Below are positions 2,789-31,261 of a stretch of 38,558 nt of DNA, piece after piece. The stretch comes from a virus: IMG/VR virus record IMGVR_UViG_3300025917_000038, positions 1-38,558 of that record. The stretch is one strand, 5' to 3'. Under the pieces are notes generated by a model that did no database searches, was not told where the DNA came from, and saw nothing but the letters and a program-made list of their open reading frames with translations. Within the stretch, counting starts at the first letter, position 1; every line of letters starts with the position of its first letter. Both the position numbers and the translations under genes were made by a program.

Positions 2789-3772
2789 TCATCGCGTCAT
2801 CCGTCCCGCTTGGTTGGCTTGTTGCACGATTGCTTCTACTTCTTCATCCGTGGGAAGCGCTTTCCATGCCGCCGGCATACTGCGCCGGAGCTTGATCAGT
2901 TCCATCGCCTCATCGGCCGTCACGCCACGCTTCATCAGGCGAAAGCCGAGCGCTGTTTCTGTCGCGTTCAGCTTAATCCGATTCGCCGATTCGGCTGGTG
3001 CTTTCAGAAACGCTTTAAATTCCTCTTTGACGGCATCAGGCGATGGCTTTAAGGGACTTACTGATGATTGCGCGGCCATCTTCGCCTGATGCTCAGCCCT
3101 GAGCTTGCGCGTGAGTTCCAACGGCGACAGTTGCGGCTCGGTCGGCTTCGGAAAGCCCATCGGCGTCGTTTCTGCCGCAGTCGTGGCTTCTGCCTCAATC
3201 GCTGGTGCTGCCTCTTTCGCAGCTCCACCGCGCCTGTATCCGCCGACCAGCACAGCGCCAGCGGTGGCGAGCGGTTCAGGCACTCCGATCGCTTTGAGTC
3301 CCTGATGCGCGAGTTCGTATTTGATGATTGGTGCGACTTGCCCTGCCGCTGCGGCCGCGCCAGCTGCCACACGGCCTGCCGCATTCAATCCTGGAGCGAC
3401 AACAGCACGCCCGACCGATCCAGCACCAATCGCGGCAAGTTCTGGCGGCACACCGAGCACTTGGTTATCAACTCGGTCGCCCTCCTTGACGCCGCTTACT
3501 GGATGCCACACCTTACCCGCTATGCCGCGATCTTCCCAGTAACCGGCCGATGGTTCAACTTTGGATGGTTCATCAGGTTTAGACGGCGCCGCTTCAGAAG
3601 ACTTCAGATCCCATAGATCCGCCTTCAGTTCTTTCGGCAGATCCAGAGTCTTTAGCCGCGAATCTAAATCCTCCGTATTTTTGGCGGCATGATACAGATC
3701 CCACAAGCCAGCCTTTTGAGCCTTCGACAGTCCTGTCCTGTCAAGAAAAGTCTGGAGAGGATCGTCAGCCAT
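2789..3772 (-). CDS. Putative internal virion / DNA-ejection protein, 327 aa
   Basis: The N-terminus (MADDPLQTFLDRTGLSKAQK) carries two helical repeats with a shared WDL motif (about 23-25 and 53-55). An Ala/Gly-rich hydrophobic centre (about 105-180), a proline-rich linker and a helical C-terminus follow. No enzymatic motif is seen. The gene follows the other ejection-type genes downstream of the tail hub, the slot of gp7/gp20/gp16 in P22, so a role inside the virion or in the DNA conduit is inferred from position and composition. Its start overlaps the previous stop by one base. Confidence 0.55.
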   Translation of the reverse strand: MADDPLQTFLDRTGLSKAQKAGLWDLYHAAKNTEDLDSRLKTLDLPKELKADLWDLKSSEAAPSKPDEPSKVEPSAGYWEDRGIAGKVWHPVSGVKEGDRVDNQVLGVPPELAAIGAGSVGRAVVAPGLNAAGRVAAGAAAAAGQVAPIIKYELAHQGLKAIGVPEPLATAGAVLVGGYRRGGAAKEAAPAIEAEATTAAETTPMGFPKPTEPQLSPLELTRKLRAEHQAKMAAQSSVSPLKPSPDAVKEEFKAFLKAPAESANRIKLNATETALGFRLMKRGVTADEAMELIKLRRSMPAAWKALPTDEEVEAIVQQANQAGRMTR

Positions 3773-5088
3773 TAGCGATAGGGATTCTTAGTCGCTTCTT
3801 TAGCGGCTGACTTTTGGCGGTAGCCCTGCACGAGCACATCCCCTTCGTCTCCATAGAACTCGCGCAACGCAGCAGCTCCAGCCTCAGCCCCAAGCGATGC
3901 GAGCAATTGGGCGCGCGCACGTCGCTTCTGCGCCAGCGTGGCGGCGTTGTCTCCAGGTTCAGCAAAATACGTCTTCCGGTCGTTCTCGTATTCGCTGTCC
4001 TTGATCGTCGCGCCTGAGTCCTTACGCAACCGTGCTTCCGTGAAAGCCCGCTGCGCTTGGTTGTATTTTTGGCCGATGTCGCTCTGTGCCCAGTTCGGCG
4101 CGTGTTTCATCCATTCCGTGCCGACAAACCCCATCTTCGATACTTCATCCTCGATCGGATTGATATCTTCGTCGGCTTGCCTCGCACGATTAAAGAATCC
4201 GAGCGCCCGCCGCTGTTGGCCGGTTGGCGGCTTGTCTGCGCCTTGAGGTTTCGCCGCTTCTCTAGCCTCACGCTGACGCGCCACGCCGAGATTGCCGGCC
4301 GCTATGGCTTCGTTCGCTCGATGGCTCCGCGCGGCCTCTGCCTGCGCCGCAGCCTGTGCCGCCCGCGCCGCTTCGGCTCGTGCATTCTCGGCTGCAATAC
4401 GCGCCGCGTCGGTAGGCTGGATCGGTTTCGTGCCTGCCTCTTCCTGCTGACGGATGCGTGTTTGTGCCTCCGTAGACGCAATATCGGCCTTTGATTTCGC
4501 GGCTTCTTCGTCGGCTTTACGCTGCGCTTCGGATCGCCCAATCAGCGCGTCCGTGATGAACTTTACGTGATCCGGCGTCGGGTTTTCATGTAGGGCTTTC
4601 TCGAATAAATCGAGTTCTTGCATCCGCTGCGGATCGTCCTTATACATCCCCTTCAGCGTTGAAATGGTGCCCTGCGCGAACCGCGGATCATAGCCGTGCT
4701 CTCGGACGACTGACAACGCCCGCGCGATCGTATCTTCTGAGGCTTTACGCGCGTCCTCTAGTGCCTTCGTTCGCTTCGCGTTCGACTCGCCTATCTCGGC
4801 GAATTGCTTACGGATCGTCGGCTGTAAATGTCCAGGCAATCGCGACAGGACTGATTCACTGTCACCGCTCGCGAATGCTTCATCGATGGCCTTCAGATCG
4901 GCGACCTTCTGTTGCGAGGATTGCAACGCCAGTTGTTGCTGCTCCATCTGCATCCGCTGTTGCGCGGCGCGCGCCCGTCGCTCCGGTATTGACGCGACCA
5001 TTTGCGCCATATTCGCGAGCGTGCCGAGCCACTCATCACCCCGCGATGGGCTGCGTGTGCCAGTCAGGATATCGAGCGGATCAGCCAC
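3772..5088 (-). CDS. Putative coiled-coil internal virion protein, 438 aa
   Basis: After a short N-terminus (MADPLDILTGTRSPSRGDEW) the protein is dominated by Gln/Ala/Glu/Arg-rich helices. Strong coiled-coil character runs through about 35-70 (QQRMQMEQQQLALQ) and again through about 190-280 with AEAARAAQAAAQAEAAR-type repeats. A structured region (about 100-180) and a globular C-terminus (SLGAEAGAAALREFYGDEG) complete it. Large alanine-rich helical proteins downstream of the tail hub are typical of phage ejection proteins, and that is the inferred role. No transglycosylase or peptidase motif is visible. Confidence 0.58.
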   Translation of the reverse strand: MADPLDILTGTRSPSRGDEWLGTLANMAQMVASIPERRARAAQQRMQMEQQQLALQSSQQKVADLKAIDEAFASGDSESVLSRLPGHLQPTIRKQFAEIGESNAKRTKALEDARKASEDTIARALSVVREHGYDPRFAQGTISTLKGMYKDDPQRMQELDLFEKALHENPTPDHVKFITDALIGRSEAQRKADEEAAKSKADIASTEAQTRIRQQEEAGTKPIQPTDAARIAAENARAEAARAAQAAAQAEAARSHRANEAIAAGNLGVARQREAREAAKPQGADKPPTGQQRRALGFFNRARQADEDINPIEDEVSKMGFVGTEWMKHAPNWAQSDIGQKYNQAQRAFTEARLRKDSGATIKDSEYENDRKTYFAEPGDNAATLAQKRRARAQLLASLGAEAGAAALREFYGDEGDVLVQGYRQKSAAKEATKNPYR

Positions 5089-7621: not shown

Positions 7622-8124
7622 GGTGTGTAGGCTACGTAGATGAAGTTCCCAGCCCCGTCATCGACTGGATTTGGAGGATTGCCACCATCGCTCAACACCA
7701 CGTAATCCACCGACGTGGCACCAAGCGTGACCGTGACGCCGTTGATCCGCGCTTTAAGTAGATTCGTCGAGGCGTTATACCAAATATCGCCATTGACCAA
7801 TGCTGATGGATCGCCGGCTTGCCCACCAACATTGACGCCGGAGTTTGTCGCGTCCGGATTGAACGTCTGTCGAATGCCGTCTGGAAACGCGAATGTCCCA
7901 TCGTCGGCAATGGTGACGACGCTATTTTGTAATTGTGTCCCGCTCGTGCCATCCCATCGCGCGATGGCGTTATTCGTAGACAGTCCAGGTCCGAACACGT
8001 CCCCGGCCGTCGTGAAGTCCTGCAATAACTGCATGAACCATAAATACCAGGTTCTAGACACGATGCCAGTCTGCGGATTGGCGATCGGTTCATGTGGCGC
8101 TTGAAACAGGATGGGGCGCGACAT
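7618..8124 (-). CDS. Putative minor tail protein, 168 aa
   Basis: The N-terminus (MSRPILFQAPHEPIANPQTG then SRTWYLWFMQLL) follows a motif, recalled from podovirus tail-gene neighbours, of a proline-rich start then IVSRxWxxWFxxL. Residues 50-80 (NNAIARWDGTSGTQLQNSVV) are a tail-fibre-type repeat (ARWDGTTGxxLQxS). Residues 110-130 carry a DIWYNASTNLLKARINGVT motif seen in fibre-shaft proteins. It probably links fibre and tail tip. It follows the tail-hub C-terminal gene with a 1-base overlap. Confidence 0.65.
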   Translation of the reverse strand: MSRPILFQAPHEPIANPQTGIVSRTWYLWFMQLLQDFTTAGDVFGPGLSTNNAIARWDGTSGTQLQNSVVTIADDGTFAFPDGIRQTFNPDATNSGVNVGGQAGDPSALVNGDIWYNASTNLLKARINGVTVTLGATSVDYVVLSDGGNPPNPVDDGAGNFIYVAYTP

Positions 8125-9953
8125 CAGCTCGTGCCGACCGTGAAGCCTTGCGGCAATTCACATGCGATCCACGCGACAAACACCGGCGCATCGCAGATCA
8201 ACTCCGCAACGGGATTGCGAAGCCCTTGGCAAAAGCGCGTCAGATACGAGCGAATCATCGTCTCGCCATCCGCCCCGAGCGGGAGTTCCCGATACGGCCC
8301 CCACGTTTGACCGCCGTCTGGACTGATCCGAAGAGACATCACCGGATCGGCATCGTCCGCATTTCCAACGCCCATCTGCGAGATGATTTCGATCCGTGGG
8401 ATGAAAATTTTTTTATTGCCATCATAGGGCAGTGCCCATCGCCGTAAACGCCGTAATTGATTCGCCGTGCTCTGGAAAGTGTTCGTCACAGCGACCGTGA
8501 CCGCTTCGCCCGCACCCAAGGCGATGGCGTCGTGCGGACTCCCATCGCTCACGCTATAACTCGTGCTCCAGCCTTGCGTCGGCGTCTCGGTTACTCCGTA
8601 GGTGCCGGCGCCAACACTCGTGTAAATGCGTGACTCTCCATTGATCAGGGAGAACGTGGACGGCGACAGTCCTCCCGTGGTGGTGAAATCAAAACTCGTA
8701 TCCCCACCAGGAAGCGGCGTCGTGGTTTTCGTGACCGTGATCGAGCCCGCCGCCGGAGTCGACGTGCCAAGCGCCAGATAGACCAACTCCCGCTCGGTAT
8801 CTACGACCGACCAGTTGACGCCGATACTGCTCGCGCTCCACGCGGATATCGTGGCTCGACCGTTAATCGTATCGGTGATGGTGGACGCGATCGTAATGGC
8901 GTGCGTGTTGTCTTCGAGGCTCGTGCCTTCGGCTGGCACCGCCACACCGTTGCGCATCGCCGTCCAAGCTGCGGATTCATCCCCGCCACTCGTGGCGGCT
9001 CCCATTAAATACGACAGCGGACTCGCGACCGAACCAGAGGAGGCGGCACACTTCGATTGCACCAGCAACGTGGAGGCTTGAATACCAATCGAGACGGTTT
9101 GCACGCCAGTCGCGAGCGGCGCCGTGAACGCCCCGCACGCGGCACCTGTAATGCCGGCGCCGCCAAGCGCGAGATACGCGATGTAGAGTGACGTGCTCTG
9201 ACTGGTGGAGAAGTTCAGTGTAAATCCGTCCGCATCGAATGATGTAAAAGACGCAAGCACAACAGTAGACGTTCGGGCCAACGCCACGCAATTCGTGGTC
9301 GTTTGATACATATCCGCAACCGTGGTCCCGGTCGCATCGCAATAACTCGCCGTCGCGGCTTGCTGCGTATTCGACACGGCAAAGCCGACATTGAGCAGAC
9401 CTTCATGGGCGAACTGCGTCCCACCTCGAACGCCCGGCATGAATGTCGTGATGAGGGCCTTCGGTTGGAATCCCACGCCAGTAATCGATTGACTGCCAGG
9501 CGTGGCACGTGGCGTCATAAATGCCACTACGGCGTCAACATCACTGCCGCCTACGGCCCAGTAGTTCCAATAGATACCATCCGACAAGGCTCCGGAAAAA
9601 TCCCAGTTGATCGTAAACCCGTCCGCATCCATCGATGCGATATAGCCGGCCGCCGACAGAAAGTTGATCGCGCTCGCGCCGAGCAGCAATAGTGACCGAT
9701 CATCAGACCACGCGCAATTCGTGCTGTTCACACCGACGAATGGCGCCTCCGTGAAGCACTGCCCGGTGTGCGTCGTGCCGTCATCAAATCCCACAGACAT
9801 CGACACGTAAAAGGTGTCGACGGTGCCGTCAGGGACATTCGATAAGGTGCCGGAGAATCTGATCGCTTTCGGCTGAAAGCCGAGTCCAGTGATCGATTGC
9901 GTGCCGGTGCCGACGCGCTTTGCGAATGCTCCGACAGCCGAAAGCAGACTCAT
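8124..9953 (-). CDS. Insertion-type tail protein ending in a gp10-like tail-hub C-terminus, 609 aa
   Basis: ATG 9953 overlaps the stop of the gp10-like N-terminal gene (ATGA). Residues 15-150 and 152-270 are two clear copies of a module (TQSITGLGFQPKAIRFSG … MDADGFTINWDF; SQSITGVGFQPKALITTF … FDADGFTLNF); 280-398 is a weaker third copy. Residues 401-493 resemble a prealbumin/SpaA-like adhesion domain (ITVTKTTTPLPGGDTSFDFT … GTYGVTE). Residues 500-600 (RRLRRWALPYDG, MSLRISPDGGQTWGPYRELP, LICDAPVFVAWIACEL) match the last part of gp10-like DNA-stabilisation proteins (DDGGxTWS … G … R). So about 490 residues appear inserted ahead of a displaced hub C-terminus. Likely role: tail plug/hub plus surface display. 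Confidence 0.72.
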   Translation of the reverse strand: MSLLSAVGAFAKRVGTGTQSITGLGFQPKAIRFSGTLSNVPDGTVDTFYVSMSVGFDDGTTHTGQCFTEAPFVGVNSTNCAWSDDRSLLLLGASAINFLSAAGYIASMDADGFTINWDFSGALSDGIYWNYWAVGGSDVDAVVAFMTPRATPGSQSITGVGFQPKALITTFMPGVRGGTQFAHEGLLNVGFAVSNTQQAATASYCDATGTTVADMYQTTTNCVALARTSTVVLASFTSFDADGFTLNFSTSQSTSLYIAYLALGGAGITGAACGAFTAPLATGVQTVSIGIQASTLLVQSKCAASSGSVASPLSYLMGAATSGGDESAAWTAMRNGVAVPAEGTSLEDNTHAITIASTITDTINGRATISAWSASSIGVNWSVVDTERELVYLALGTSTPAAGSITVTKTTTPLPGGDTSFDFTTTGGLSPSTFSLINGESRIYTSVGAGTYGVTETPTQGWSTSYSVSDGSPHDAIALGAGEAVTVAVTNTFQSTANQLRRLRRWALPYDGNKKIFIPRIEIISQMGVGNADDADPVMSLRISPDGGQTWGPYRELPLGADGETMIRSYLTRFCQGLRNPVAELICDAPVFVAWIACELPQGFTVGTS

Positions 9954-16577: not shown

Positions 16578-17558
16578 CTAGCCTCCGCTCGACGTGTTGA
16601 TGTTGTAGTAGCCCCGCCGATCATGCGTCCATGCCGGATCGATCGGCATGTCTGCGGGCTTGACATTCGTCCGCTTCACGATCGCCATCGCACGCATGGA
16701 ACCGCGGAGAATGTCCGCGCGCACCATTTCATCCTTGACGGCATACGGCGTCAATAACCGCTCCGCGAGTCCGTATTCCAGCAATTCTTCGAACCCAGGC
16801 GGCACGGCATATGAGGTCGTCGCGAGGTCCGCAAACGTCGCCAATGTGTTCCGGCGATACAGGACGAGCGCATTCGTTGCGATATTCGGGATCGGCCACA
16901 ACTGGATAATGGCTAAGTCTCGCGCATAGGTCGCGTTGAAGTAGACGCCCGTCGCCAGCGAGTTCGACAGCGACTTGACTTGAATGGCCTGCCACGAATC
17001 ATCGGTAAAAATGGAGCGCGGAATTTCGATCGTCGAGCTGCCGGACGTGAACGCTTGGATCGTCGTCGTAGTCACTGTGGAGCTTGGCACCACTTCAGCC
17101 ACTGAAATCACGGTGTTCGCGCCGAAGACGGACGAGACAACCGTGTAGTTGCCGTCATTCGCCCCGCCGGCCACAACCACGACGCTGCCAGACGTGAACA
17201 CGGACGTTACATCCGTCGCCACGGTGAAGGTGCCGTTCGCGGGAGACGCGGCAGCTAAGGTATAGGCCGTGCTGATCGTCGGATTCTGCAGAATCGCTGC
17301 GCCTTCCAACTCGAACGGCCGCGTCGTATCGAAGTCTCCGCCCGGCCCGATCGTATACACGCCTCTGTCGGCGATCAGCGGCCACACTTCACGCGCCACA
17401 AATGCCGAGACGAGTGATTGATTGTTGAGGAGCTTGACGAAATTATTCAGGCGCCGACGGCAATCGGTGTAGTCCGTCGCCGTCAGTGATTCGCCGACCG
17501 CTTTGATGTTGCAGAGGTCTGCGGCGCCGTCAATGACATCTTGCGCGGTCACACTCAC
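16578..17558 (-). CDS. P22 gp4-like tail accessory / head-tail adaptor, 326 aa
   Basis: The N-terminus (VTAQDVIDGAADLCNIKAVG … LTATDYTDCRRRLNNFVKLL) is the helical pattern of gp4-like adaptors: Ax-DIIxxA, then a block of leucines and LN. It is followed by VWPLIADRGVYTIGPGGDFD and RPFELEGAAIL, the YTIGxGGDFxxxRP signature of this family. About residues 100-175 form a Thr/Ser/Val-rich beta insert, Ig-like in feel, not expected in the shortest homologues. The end (VYFNATYARDLAIIQLWPIP … VPPGFEELLEYGLAERLLTP) is also family-typical. Known role: binds the portal ring and starts the tail. Confidence 0.82.
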   Translation of the reverse strand: MSVTAQDVIDGAADLCNIKAVGESLTATDYTDCRRRLNNFVKLLNNQSLVSAFVAREVWPLIADRGVYTIGPGGDFDTTRPFELEGAAILQNPTISTAYTLAAASPANGTFTVATDVTSVFTSGSVVVVAGGANDGNYTVVSSVFGANTVISVAEVVPSSTVTTTTIQAFTSGSSTIEIPRSIFTDDSWQAIQVKSLSNSLATGVYFNATYARDLAIIQLWPIPNIATNALVLYRRNTLATFADLATTSYAVPPGFEELLEYGLAERLLTPYAVKDEMVRADILRGSMRAMAIVKRTNVKPADMPIDPAWTHDRRGYYNINTSSGG

Positions 17559-28361: not shown

Positions 28362-28690
28362 TCGCGTTCTCCGAGAATACGTGCCGTCCAATCCGCGTTT
28401 GGTAATTTGGCACTTGATACGCCGTTCGCCCACGACGTCGCGGCCTTTCGCGTGCGCGGCATCGACTCGGCGGCTTGCTGAATAGCCGCCATACGTTCAG
28501 GGATCGCCATCTGTCGGACGTGTTGCGGTAAATCTGGCGGCGCCGGCCCTACGCACTCTACGCAGCGCATCATCGGCCGCTTCCGCCTGACGCCCTCAAT
28601 CGTGATGGTCTGCATCGGCTGTTCAGGGTAAATCGGCTTTCCACACCGGCCGCACAACTCCTGCACTTTCGCGCGGGTCCATTGTCTCAC
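28358..28690 (-). CDS. Zn-ribbon protein, 110 aa
   Basis: GTG 28690 overlaps the previous stop (GTGA). Residues 13-46 contain C-GR-C … MMRC-VE-C, two CxxC pairs spaced for a zinc ribbon, with basic surroundings. After QHVRQMAIPERMAAI the C-terminus has SWANGVSSAKLPNADW. Probably nucleic-acid binding. Its position ahead of TerL could suit a packaging-initiation role, but there is no small-terminase signature. Confidence 0.62.
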   Translation of the reverse strand: MRQWTRAKVQELCGRCGKPIYPEQPMQTITIEGVRRKRPMMRCVECVGPAPPDLPQHVRQMAIPERMAAIQQAAESMPRTRKAATSWANGVSSAKLPNADWTARILGERE

Positions 28691-28977
28691 TTTGCGGCCC
28701 TCCGTCCGCGCGCTCGGCGTAAAGCTTCAGTCGTCGTGGTCCCATCATACAAGATGCCTTTTCTCGCGCAGGCCGTTTTAAGATGCTCGATCTGCTCGCC
28801 TTCTGGCTCTCGTGGATGGGCCAACAACACATCAGCCGCGAGATTCAACATCTTCGCCGTAACGGTTGTAGCGTCACACGTAACGGGCGTAACGGTATCG
28901 AACAAGTCGGGCGTTTCCTCTTGCTGAATGAAGTCGGCCCACGGCATCTGCCCCTTGTAGACCGTCCGCTTTCTCAT
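28687..28977 (-). CDS. First gene of the minus-strand operon, hypothetical, 96 aa
   Basis: MRKRTVYKGQMPWADFIQQE then DATTVTAKMLNLAADVLLAH … EQIEHLKTACARKGILYDGT … ALRRARGRRAAK: a helical domain with a basic tail. Its size and place (first, three genes before TerL) would allow a small terminase subunit, but I see no HTH signature. It opens the late operon next to the gene-free control region. No strong Shine-Dalgarno or promoter was found directly upstream. Confidence 0.6.
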   Translation of the reverse strand: MRKRTVYKGQMPWADFIQQEETPDLFDTVTPVTCDATTVTAKMLNLAADVLLAHPREPEGEQIEHLKTACARKGILYDGTTTTEALRRARGRRAAK

Positions 28978-29016
28978 TTGATCCAGATCGGTATTTCTGT
29001 CTTTTAGAACAAATTC

Positions 29017-29118
29017 CTGACATCTTTTTTCCCGATTCCCTTTTCCTCAGGGACGGAGAAAAAACAAGGCCCGGATTTCCTACGCGACGGAATCGGGACC
29101 GGGGCGCGAAGATGTCAG
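29017..29118. repeat. Two-part nested inverted repeat
   Basis: CTGACATCTT (29017-29026) pairs perfectly with AAGATGTCAG (29109-29118), and just inside CCCGATTCC (29031-29039) pairs with GGAATCGGG (29089-29097). Together they form a 10+9-bp interrupted stem around about 50 bases. A CCGGATTT direct repeat occurs inside (about 29071-29078) and just outside (about 29132-29139). Confidence 0.6.
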
Positions 29119-29264
29119 ACAGCGCACTTCCCCGGATTTGTTGTGAGCTTTTCAGGCGCGAAAGCTCGAAACCGCCGTGATCAACACGCCCGCACGGTCT
29201 GGCGAGATGCTATAGGTTGTGGTGGGTAGGCTGGACCGATACCAGCAGTGGGATTGTCAGCGAT

Positions 29265-29303
29265 TTGACAGGGGATTTAGCGACAGGTAAAATGGCCCCT
29301 GTC
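29265..29303 (+). promoter_or_regulatory. Near-consensus sigma70 promoter with GACAGG operator-like repeats
   Basis: TTGACA (29265-29270), 17-base spacer, TAAAAT (29288-29293, 5 of 6). Predicted start about 29300. GACAGGGG (29267-29274) and CCCCTGTC (29296-29303) form a perfect 8-bp dyad straddling the promoter, and a further GACAGG lies at 29282-29287, so a repressor could block it. It points into the non-coding repeat block. Confidence 0.7.
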
Positions 29304-29308
29304 CGGCA

Positions 29309-29401
29309 AACCTTCCCGGCAACCGTAACATCCAATGACCGGCCGAGGCCATCAACCTCGTGCCGGTCGCAACCTTCCCGAAAAACTCGAACCGTAACAT
29401 C
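29309..29401 (+). ncRNA. Candidate structured RNA: direct repeat - hairpin - direct repeat
   Basis: AACCTTCCCG…AACCGTAACATC occurs at 29309-29332 and again at 29371-29401 (10 bases between the two halves in the second copy, 2 in the first). Exactly between them is a hairpin: GACCGGC (29337-29343) and GAGG (29345-29348) pairing with CCTC (29356-29359) and GCCGGTC (29362-29368), loop CCATCAA. The block begins about 9 bases after the predicted start of the 29265 promoter. It is probably transcribed, but it could also be a DNA-level iteron array. Confidence 0.5.
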
Positions 29402-29529
29402 TGGGCAGAGAAGATACGCCTGCCGTCACGAAAACGCAACACTACTACTGTTCTATAACAGCAGCACAGTTCCATCCCGACTATAAGCTACCGTCCGTAA
29501 GTTGTTGATTCCACTTTATAGGTCATTTT

Positions 29530-29595
29530 GAATATGAGCGGACTTCTCGCGCTCGCCGATGAGTCGGTCGATTTTTCCGTGATGCGCTCATATTC
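29530..29595. repeat. 11-bp perfect inverted repeat
   Basis: GAATATGAGCG (29530-29540) and CGCTCATATTC (29585-29595) are perfect complements around a 44-base loop that holds a CCGA-TGAG-TCGG mini-hairpin. It may form a long-armed RNA or cruciform structure; there is no T-run after it. Confidence 0.6.
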
Positions 29596-29619
29596 GATCC
29601 TGAGCGGTTTTAGAGGGTA

Positions 29620-29648
29620 TTTCTATGCACTAGAATTAGTGCAAGAAA
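29620..29648. repeat. Dyad TTTCT-TGCACTA / TAGTGCA-AGAAA
   Basis: TGCACTA (29626-29632), loop GAAT, TAGTGCA (29637-29643), extended by TTTCT (29620-29624) with AGAAA (29644-29648) after a one-base bulge. It lies 40 bases beyond the stop of the minus-strand HNH gene, so it may end that transcript, end an opposing RNA, or be a protein site. Confidence 0.5.
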
Positions 29649-29689
29649 TCGACACTTTCGCCTAATTTCTGTCTTGACTTCGCGCAATG

Positions 29690-30148
29690 TTATGCTGTTT
29701 CTGTGTAAAATTTGCCGCAGTGCGGGCATTTCAAATCCTTCGACCTGACTCCGTTCGGGTGTGATGTGCCGACCCATAGTTCTAGATTCTCTGCACGATT
29801 GTCGTCGCGGAGTCCGTTGATGTGGTGAACGTTTTCGCGTCGAGTCAACGGCCGATTTAGAATTTCCTCCATCACTAAACGATGTTCAAGAATCCAGCGA
29901 TTGCCGTGGCGGATAAGCACGTATCCTGCTGGGTTCACATTTCTGTTTTTTACTGAGCGAGCAATACTCCTCTCTAGGCGCTCGCGATGTTCTATTAGTT
30001 TCAGTTTTTGCTGTTTGGCGTAGTGTGCAGCGCAGAACCATGACGTTTTGTATCCGCGACGATGTCGTGTCGCATCGGCCCATCGAATCCGAGTCCGCAA
30101 CTCATGGCAACCAGGCGCGGCGCACAGCCGACCATCTTTAATACCCAT
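29690..30148 (-). CDS. HNH homing-type endonuclease, 152 aa
   Basis: The C-terminal part reads ILEHRLVMEEILNRPLTRRE NVHHINGLRDDNRAENLELW, the classical phage HNH_3-type catalytic block with its VHHxNGxxxDNRxxNLELW signature, then SHPNGVRS and a CPHCGKFY zinc pair. The N-terminal part has C-x4-C and WFCAAHYAKQQ elements that may form a further zinc site. Start ATG 30148 is preferred over a TTG at 30169. It is oriented opposite to the plus-strand operon and borders the control region, a common site for HNH genes linked to packaging or homing. Confidence 0.85.
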   Translation of the reverse strand: MGIKDGRLCAAPGCHELRTRIRWADATRHRRGYKTSWFCAAHYAKQQKLKLIEHRERLERSIARSVKNRNVNPAGYVLIRHGNRWILEHRLVMEEILNRPLTRRENVHHINGLRDDNRAENLELWVGTSHPNGVRSKDLKCPHCGKFYTETA

Positions 30149-30152
30149 CGGC

Positions 30153-30182
30153 TTGACAAGATAAACCAAACATGTTTAACAT
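30153..30182 (+). promoter_or_regulatory. Promoter with palindromic spacer before the first RHH gene
   Basis: TTGACA (30153-30158), 18-base spacer, TAACAT (30177-30182, 4 of 6). The perfect palindrome AAACATGTTT (30168-30177) fills the end of the spacer, and ACATGT recurs at 30179-30184. The predicted start (about 30189-30190) lies past ATG 30181 but at GTG 30190 of the same frame, so a leaderless GTG start is possible if this promoter is used. Confidence 0.5.
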
Positions 30183-30345
30183 GTCCACTGTGGCAAGCAG
30201 AGCGAAACCGAAAATCAAGACCTATTCGATTCGGAGCGTCCCCGCTGAAATCTGGCAGAAGCTCCGCGTGCGAGCGTTACAAGAAGGCATCAGCGTTCAG
30301 GATTTGTTCCTGCGCTGGATTCAGCAGTATGCGGAGGGAAAATAG
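30181..30345 (+). CDS. Ribbon-helix-helix DNA-binding protein, 54 aa
   Basis: IKTYSIRSVPAEIWQKLRVR followed by ALQEGISVQDLFLRWIQQY fits the RHH pattern: one beta strand, then helix A with the L-x-x-RA motif, the GxSV turn, and helix B. RHH proteins dimerise and bind palindromes, often in their own promoter; the AAACATGTTT palindrome overlaps this start. ATG 30181 or GTG 30190. It has a paralogue at 31551. It could be a repressor of the plus-strand operon or an orphan antitoxin. Confidence 0.72.
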   Translation: MSTVASRAKPKIKTYSIRSVPAEIWQKLRVRALQEGISVQDLFLRWIQQYAEGK

Positions 30346-31221: not shown

Positions 31222-31261
31222 TACTAGTAGACTTGACATGAATACTAGTATTGCCTATACT
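31222..31261 (+). promoter_or_regulatory. Strong promoter with two TACTAGTA operators
   Basis: TTGACA (31233-31238), exactly 17 bases, TATACT (31256-31261, 5 of 6). Inside the spacer is the perfect 12-bp palindrome AATACTAGTATT (31241-31252). The core TACTAGTA also occurs at 31222-31229, 21 bases (two helical turns) away from the spacer copy at 31243-31250. This is the layout of a repressor-controlled promoter. The predicted start (about 31268) leaves a short leader with GAGGTGA before ATG 31282. Confidence 0.8.

Follow-up and report, generated by a model that had tools for sequence, protein, structure and literature searches.

A promoter, a duplicated linear motif and a strong hairpin in the divergent control region of an uncultured P22-like phage: a candidate cis-acting leader

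To our knowledge, cis-acting RNAs that reprogram RNA polymerase have been described from few phages. In HK022, put RNA, with two stem-loops in about 70 nt just past an early promoter, acts in cis to suppress termination by way of the zinc-binding domain of the RNA polymerase β′ subunit, and lambda nut carries a linear element (boxA) followed by a hairpin (boxB) near the start of the early transcript and works with an N-type protein. At the DNA level, an iteron origin is marked by several direct repeats set at intervals, usually three or more, and by an initiator gene close by. The putL site of HK022 lies right after the early promoter, where about 70 nt hold stem-loops, and a −10-like hexamer is found soon past the start (PMC9378689). 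The immI region of P22 contains arc, mnt and the sar RNA, a small phage antisense RNA (PMC2629481, PMC12197685).

The window analysed here is an entire virus record of 38,558 bases, whose source is, by family searches, an uncultured P22-like tailed phage. In these searches, the leftward late genes included a P22-type portal, a Terminase_3 large subunit, the major head protein, a scaffold and head-closure proteins. The rightward block runs from 30172 on and opens with small ribbon-helix-helix regulators. The switch between the leftward late and rightward early blocks spans 28978-30171 and contains the promoter-repeat-hairpin region studied here together with a standalone HNH endonuclease gene (29690-30169, minus strand), which lies opposite the transcript predicted from about 29300. 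The first clear rightward gene (30172-30345, plus strand) encodes a small putative Arc/CopG-like ribbon-helix-helix regulator; its predicted model is of modest confidence, the PDB matches fall mostly on ribbon-helix-helix proteins such as Arc and CopG, with none individually significant, and each of these lines is weak alone.

A sigma-70-type promoter, TTGACA-17-TAAAAT, was predicted at 29265-29293 on the plus strand (−35 at 29265-29270, −10 at 29288-29293). With hexamers spaced by 16-18 nt as the criterion, it matches at 11/12 positions and is one of two such matches in the 38.6-kb genome; only six sites reach at least 10/12, and the three on the plus strand are 29265, 30153 and 31233. Three of the 21 GACAGG copies in the genome fall within 37 bp here (29267+, 29282+ and 29298−), so that both the promoter and the GACAGG sites named in the first-pass annotation are present as described. 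The promoter is straddled by a perfect operator-like inverted repeat (29267-29303), in which GACAGGGG (29267-29274) and CCCCTGTC (29296-29303) are separated by 21 bp and the remaining GACAGG lies at 29282; exact matches to CCCCTGTC were found at only these two places in the genome. From the position of the promoter, transcription would start at about 29300. The second promoter-like site, TTGACA-18-TAACAT (30153-30182, plus strand), carries two ACATGT palindromes. A further promoter, TTGACA-17-TATACT, was seen at 31222-31261 near an Arc-like gene, and TACTAGTA occurs there at 31222 and 31243 and nowhere else in the genome (0.03 expected).

Downstream of the 29265 promoter, two direct repeat units flank a hairpin. 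Unit 1 (29309-29332, plus strand) reads AACCTTCCCG gc AACCGTAACATC, and unit 2 (29371-29401, plus strand) reads AACCTTCCCG aaaaactcg AACCGTAACATC and is 7 nt longer. The 10-nt AACCTTCCCG is found at 29309 and 29371 (offset 62), and the 12-nt AACCGTAACATC at 29321 and 29390 (offset 69). The repeat search was accompanied by shuffles: the collinear-repeat score of the pair is tied for the best in the genome and was reached in 0 of 2000 local dinucleotide shuffles and 0 of 60 whole-genome shuffles, which confirmed the proposed long repeats on both sides of the hairpin. A −10-like hexamer, TAACAT, lies in each of the 12-nt repeats and matches the −10 of the 30153 promoter exactly. The hairpin itself (29337-29368, plus strand) had been described as a perfect stem of 7+4 bp; it is indeed at this place, but its stem has 7+5 bp, one base is bulged and the loop measures 7 nt (GACCGGC-CGAGG / CCTCG-t-GCCGGTC). 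When loops of 3-9 nt and at most one bulge were allowed, this hairpin and another at 29619-29649 were the only stems of at least 11 bp in 38.6 kb, and both lie within the divergent intergenic stretch. Ten shuffled genomes gave 0-2 stems of at least 12 bp each, and two together were seen in 0 of 1500 local shuffles. Within 29300-29369 there is one strong stem (12 bp) plus one weak 5′ stem. The thermodynamic z of the block, about −2.3 on either strand, is modest: in a coarse genome-wide scan the block ranks within the top few per cent but is not unique. Because the chance tests were picked after the region was seen, their strength is somewhat overstated. A coding origin of the repeats was rejected, given that the offsets are unequal (62 versus 69) and the overlapping ORFs (29217/29292-29486 on the plus strand, 29257-29475 on the minus strand) score as non-coding. 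In this one genome, the repeat, promoter and hairpin statistics support the earlier view that spacer DNA would not be so regular, and a genuine control region opens the rightward early block.

Further inverted repeats had also been proposed downstream, and two were located. The first is a perfect 11-bp inverted repeat at 29530-29595 (plus strand), whose stem length alone is unexceptional for this genome. The ATG of a candidate 43-aa ORF (29534-29665, plus strand, beginning MSGLLALADESVDF...) lies in its first arm. The codon score of this ORF was 0.169, above the 0.119 that marks the 95th percentile of shadow ORFs and inside the 0.115-0.25 range of the other small genes of the phage, and no homologue was found in the protein collections searched. 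If the ORF is a real gene, the position of its ATG means that its translation could be controlled by the 29530-29595 stem. The second is a 13-bp hairpin with one bulge and a TGCACTAgaatTAGTGCA core (29619-29649), the longest in the genome, which lies 40 nt past the HNH stop and has no U-tract on either strand. The suggestion that no gene lies on the strand of the promoter for 880 bases holds in part: clear rightward genes begin only at 30172, but the gene-like codon use of the 29534-29665 ORF makes the statement uncertain. Folding of the whole leader of 300-391 nt was no better than that of shuffles (z −1.1 and −0.8).

In its predicted layout the block partly resembles HK022 putL/putR, with a promoter followed by about 70 nt that hold one strong and one weak stem and a −10-like hexamer near +26. 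On the other hand, it is the first stem that is weak, the linear motif is duplicated and the conserved put core CGAACGG...GTCGG is absent. A covariance model was built from 10 put sites and 29000-30300 was scanned with filters off; the best score was 3.5 bits, versus 92.9 and 71.9 for true sites, indicating that the block is not put by homology. As in lambda nut, a linear element and then a hairpin stand near the inferred start of an early transcript, but the linear motif is not boxA. The best boxA-like string, TGTTCTATAACA at 29449, matches at 10/12 positions, and with three such strings in the genome versus 1.3 expected it is within chance; no N-like protein was matched among the proteins scanned. 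The locus shares with P22 immI a setting of P22-like virion genes and Arc-like regulators, and a promoter that points toward another gene. The position is different, however, and no ant homologue was found among the proteins scanned. An antisense RNA of the sar type would be short and pair with the beginning of a phage messenger read from the other strand; here the opposite strand offers only the HNH gene (29690-30169), beyond the block, and overlap would need transcription past 29690. No match at gathering score was obtained for the whole genome among 4227 Rfam families (release 15); the only hit in the region came from a plant-virus pseudoknot model (E 0.66), far under its cut-off. Searches of phage and plasmid DNA collections gave no useful match to the block.

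Relatives were sought through terminase, portal, neighbour-protein and DNA-pattern searches. The terminase relatives comprise L004-L006 at 72% identity and L007 with some 25 others at 36-49%, and DNA shared with the block was undetectable in all of these (36-72% identity). Outside the window the block was met only in one contig, 99.97% identical over 20.7 kb, in which all 7 differences fall at 17337-17415. DNA matches to looser patterns elsewhere were rejected as chance, having a single copy each and dissimilar flanks. The 13-mer GTAAGTTGTTGAT, shared with L007, was likewise taken as chance because the L007 copy sits in a promoter spacer and on the other gene-sense strand. For a fast-evolving leader, absence of the block from distant relatives says little. 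In L004 the divergent region is short and free of an HNH gene, with two promoters serving a ribbon-helix-helix gene and a DnaD-like gene; promoters of at least 10/12 are likewise present in the equivalent region of L007. In both genomes a DnaD/O-like replication gene adjoins the divergent region, which contains DnaA-box-like sites. At the loci of ten relatives, 0-2 stems of at least 11 bp were counted each. In L004, a palindrome (ACAACCTCGGTTGT) similar to TACTAGTA was noted in the ribbon-helix-helix promoter spacer at 8108 (minus strand). The L004 divergent region at 8061-8400 also has a perfect DnaA box (8234) by the DnaD-like gene and is a possible replication origin of this 72% relative. 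At the place equivalent to that of the HNH gene (29690-30169), L007 carries a GIY-YIG endonuclease (3266-3796, minus strand) and L004 has none, which suggests that the divergent control region is a recurrent homing site for endonucleases.

We tentatively favour an operator-controlled early promoter with a structured leader that, while still nascent, influences elongation or termination in cis, although we would not yet put this reading at even chances. A repressor that binds the GACAGG/CCCCTGTC sites would probably control the 29265 promoter, whose transcript would head toward the early genes. The first ~100 nt of the transcript would present the two AACCTTCCCG...AACCGTAACATC linear motifs with the stable 12-bp hairpin between them, and more hairpins would follow ahead of the gene at 30172. 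As nascent RNA, the block may act on RNA polymerase or termination and so let transcription pass through a largely untranslated leader of ~870 nt to the early genes, and the TAACAT in each 12-nt repeat could be a sigma-dependent pause element. Transcription, its direction, the repression and the action at the RNA level are all inferred from the sequence. This reading was chosen because of the position and anatomy of the block (a strong hairpin between two linear motifs, each repeat carrying TAACAT), and because ~870 nt without clear genes would otherwise invite Rho. It is further favoured by a near-best promoter of the genome directly ahead of the block, by repeats and hairpins that far exceed shuffles and are limited to this intergenic stretch, by the reversal of gene direction (late leftward, regulators rightward), by the promoters of L004 and L007 in the equivalent region and by the partial parallel in layout with HK022 putL. 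Against it stand the missing block in relatives, the failed put homology, the lack of a convincing nut and the unremarkable fold of the leader. The regulator gene is preceded by a nearer promoter of its own (30153) and may therefore not be expressed from the 29265 transcript. If the leader suppresses termination, an uncultured phage group would possess a put-like device, spotted by anatomy and not by homology.

A free small RNA of ~270-350 nt, running from 29300 to the hairpins near 29570-29650 and pairing with messengers, is possible but rather doubtful. Here the pairing would fall to CUUCCC, the C-rich motif present in duplicate, which is complementary to the Shine-Dalgarno-like GGGAAG, and the phage would possess a regulator with a duplicated seed. 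In its favour, a promoter stands at its start, clear genes are mostly absent, hairpins lie at the far end and a terminator-like site is found at 29555-29568. However, terminator-like sites occur at chance level (3 found versus 3.8 expected), the 13-bp hairpin lacks a U-tract, no 10-mer phage target was found within one mismatch except the repeats themselves, and the 3′ part may be occupied by the 43-aa ORF. An undescribed kind of phage RNA, related neither in sequence nor in fold to put, nut or any Rfam family, in which a linear motif duplicated around a hairpin would modify host RNA polymerase or target messengers, is unlikely but possible and would be known from one lineage. For now the locus stands only as a clearly delimited control region that lends itself to experiment.

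Somewhat unlikely, too, is that the repeats and dyads serve at the DNA level as sites of a multi-site operator, with a phage repressor or activator bound on both sides of the start so as to loop or block the promoter. The operator-like inverted repeat over the 29265 promoter, the palindromes at the other plus-strand promoters (such as the paired TACTAGTA at 31233) and the Arc/CopG-like regulators encoded nearby are consistent with it, as is the spacing of the first half-repeats, which at 62 bp is near whole helical turns. The second halves, on the other hand, are 69 bp apart and off phase, the duplicated motif is not palindromic, and a near-perfect hairpin between the repeats would be unneeded.

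Less likely than the cis-acting leader, the small RNA or the multi-site operator are an origin and a relic. An origin with iteron-like repeats, which had been proposed earlier and would here lie at a skew switch, is improbable. In its favour are the reversal of GC skew at 29-30 kb, one perfect DnaA box (29702, minus strand), and the DnaA-box-like sites and adjoining DnaD/O-like gene of L004 and L007. Against it, the skew change is accounted for by the switch in gene direction, the DnaA box sits inside the HNH gene, only two repeat copies were found, and neither an initiator nor a DnaD-like gene was recognised in the 38.6-kb genome. A packaging RNA or DNA site, also put forward in the first-pass annotation, found no support, the terminase and portal being of the ordinary Terminase_3 and P22 types. 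A chance arrangement or functionless relic, left as debris by HNH insertion or loss of a DnaD-like gene, would fit a block private to one lineage and the short, HNH-free region of L004 or the GIY-YIG gene of L007, but is very improbable given that the promoter, the repeats and the two top hairpins all fall within 390 bp and that perfect stems should not persist in relics.

Inside a 96-aa ORF (28687-28977, minus strand), CGTAAC occurs three times within 36 bp (28858-28893); these copies may be coding repeats (Thr/Val) and not iterons. Close to the leftward late genes, on their upstream side, a nested dyad at 29017-29118 comprises two perfect 10-bp stems, the outer one formed by CTGACATCTT/AAGATGTCAG. 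It is the strongest nested dyad in the genome, was matched in 0 of 60 whole-genome shuffles and is a candidate late-side control element. Viewed post hoc, a recognition motif common to this dyad and the direct repeats is possibly TRACATC, since four of the nine heptamers in the genome fall within 29018-29401, two in the dyad and two in the repeats.
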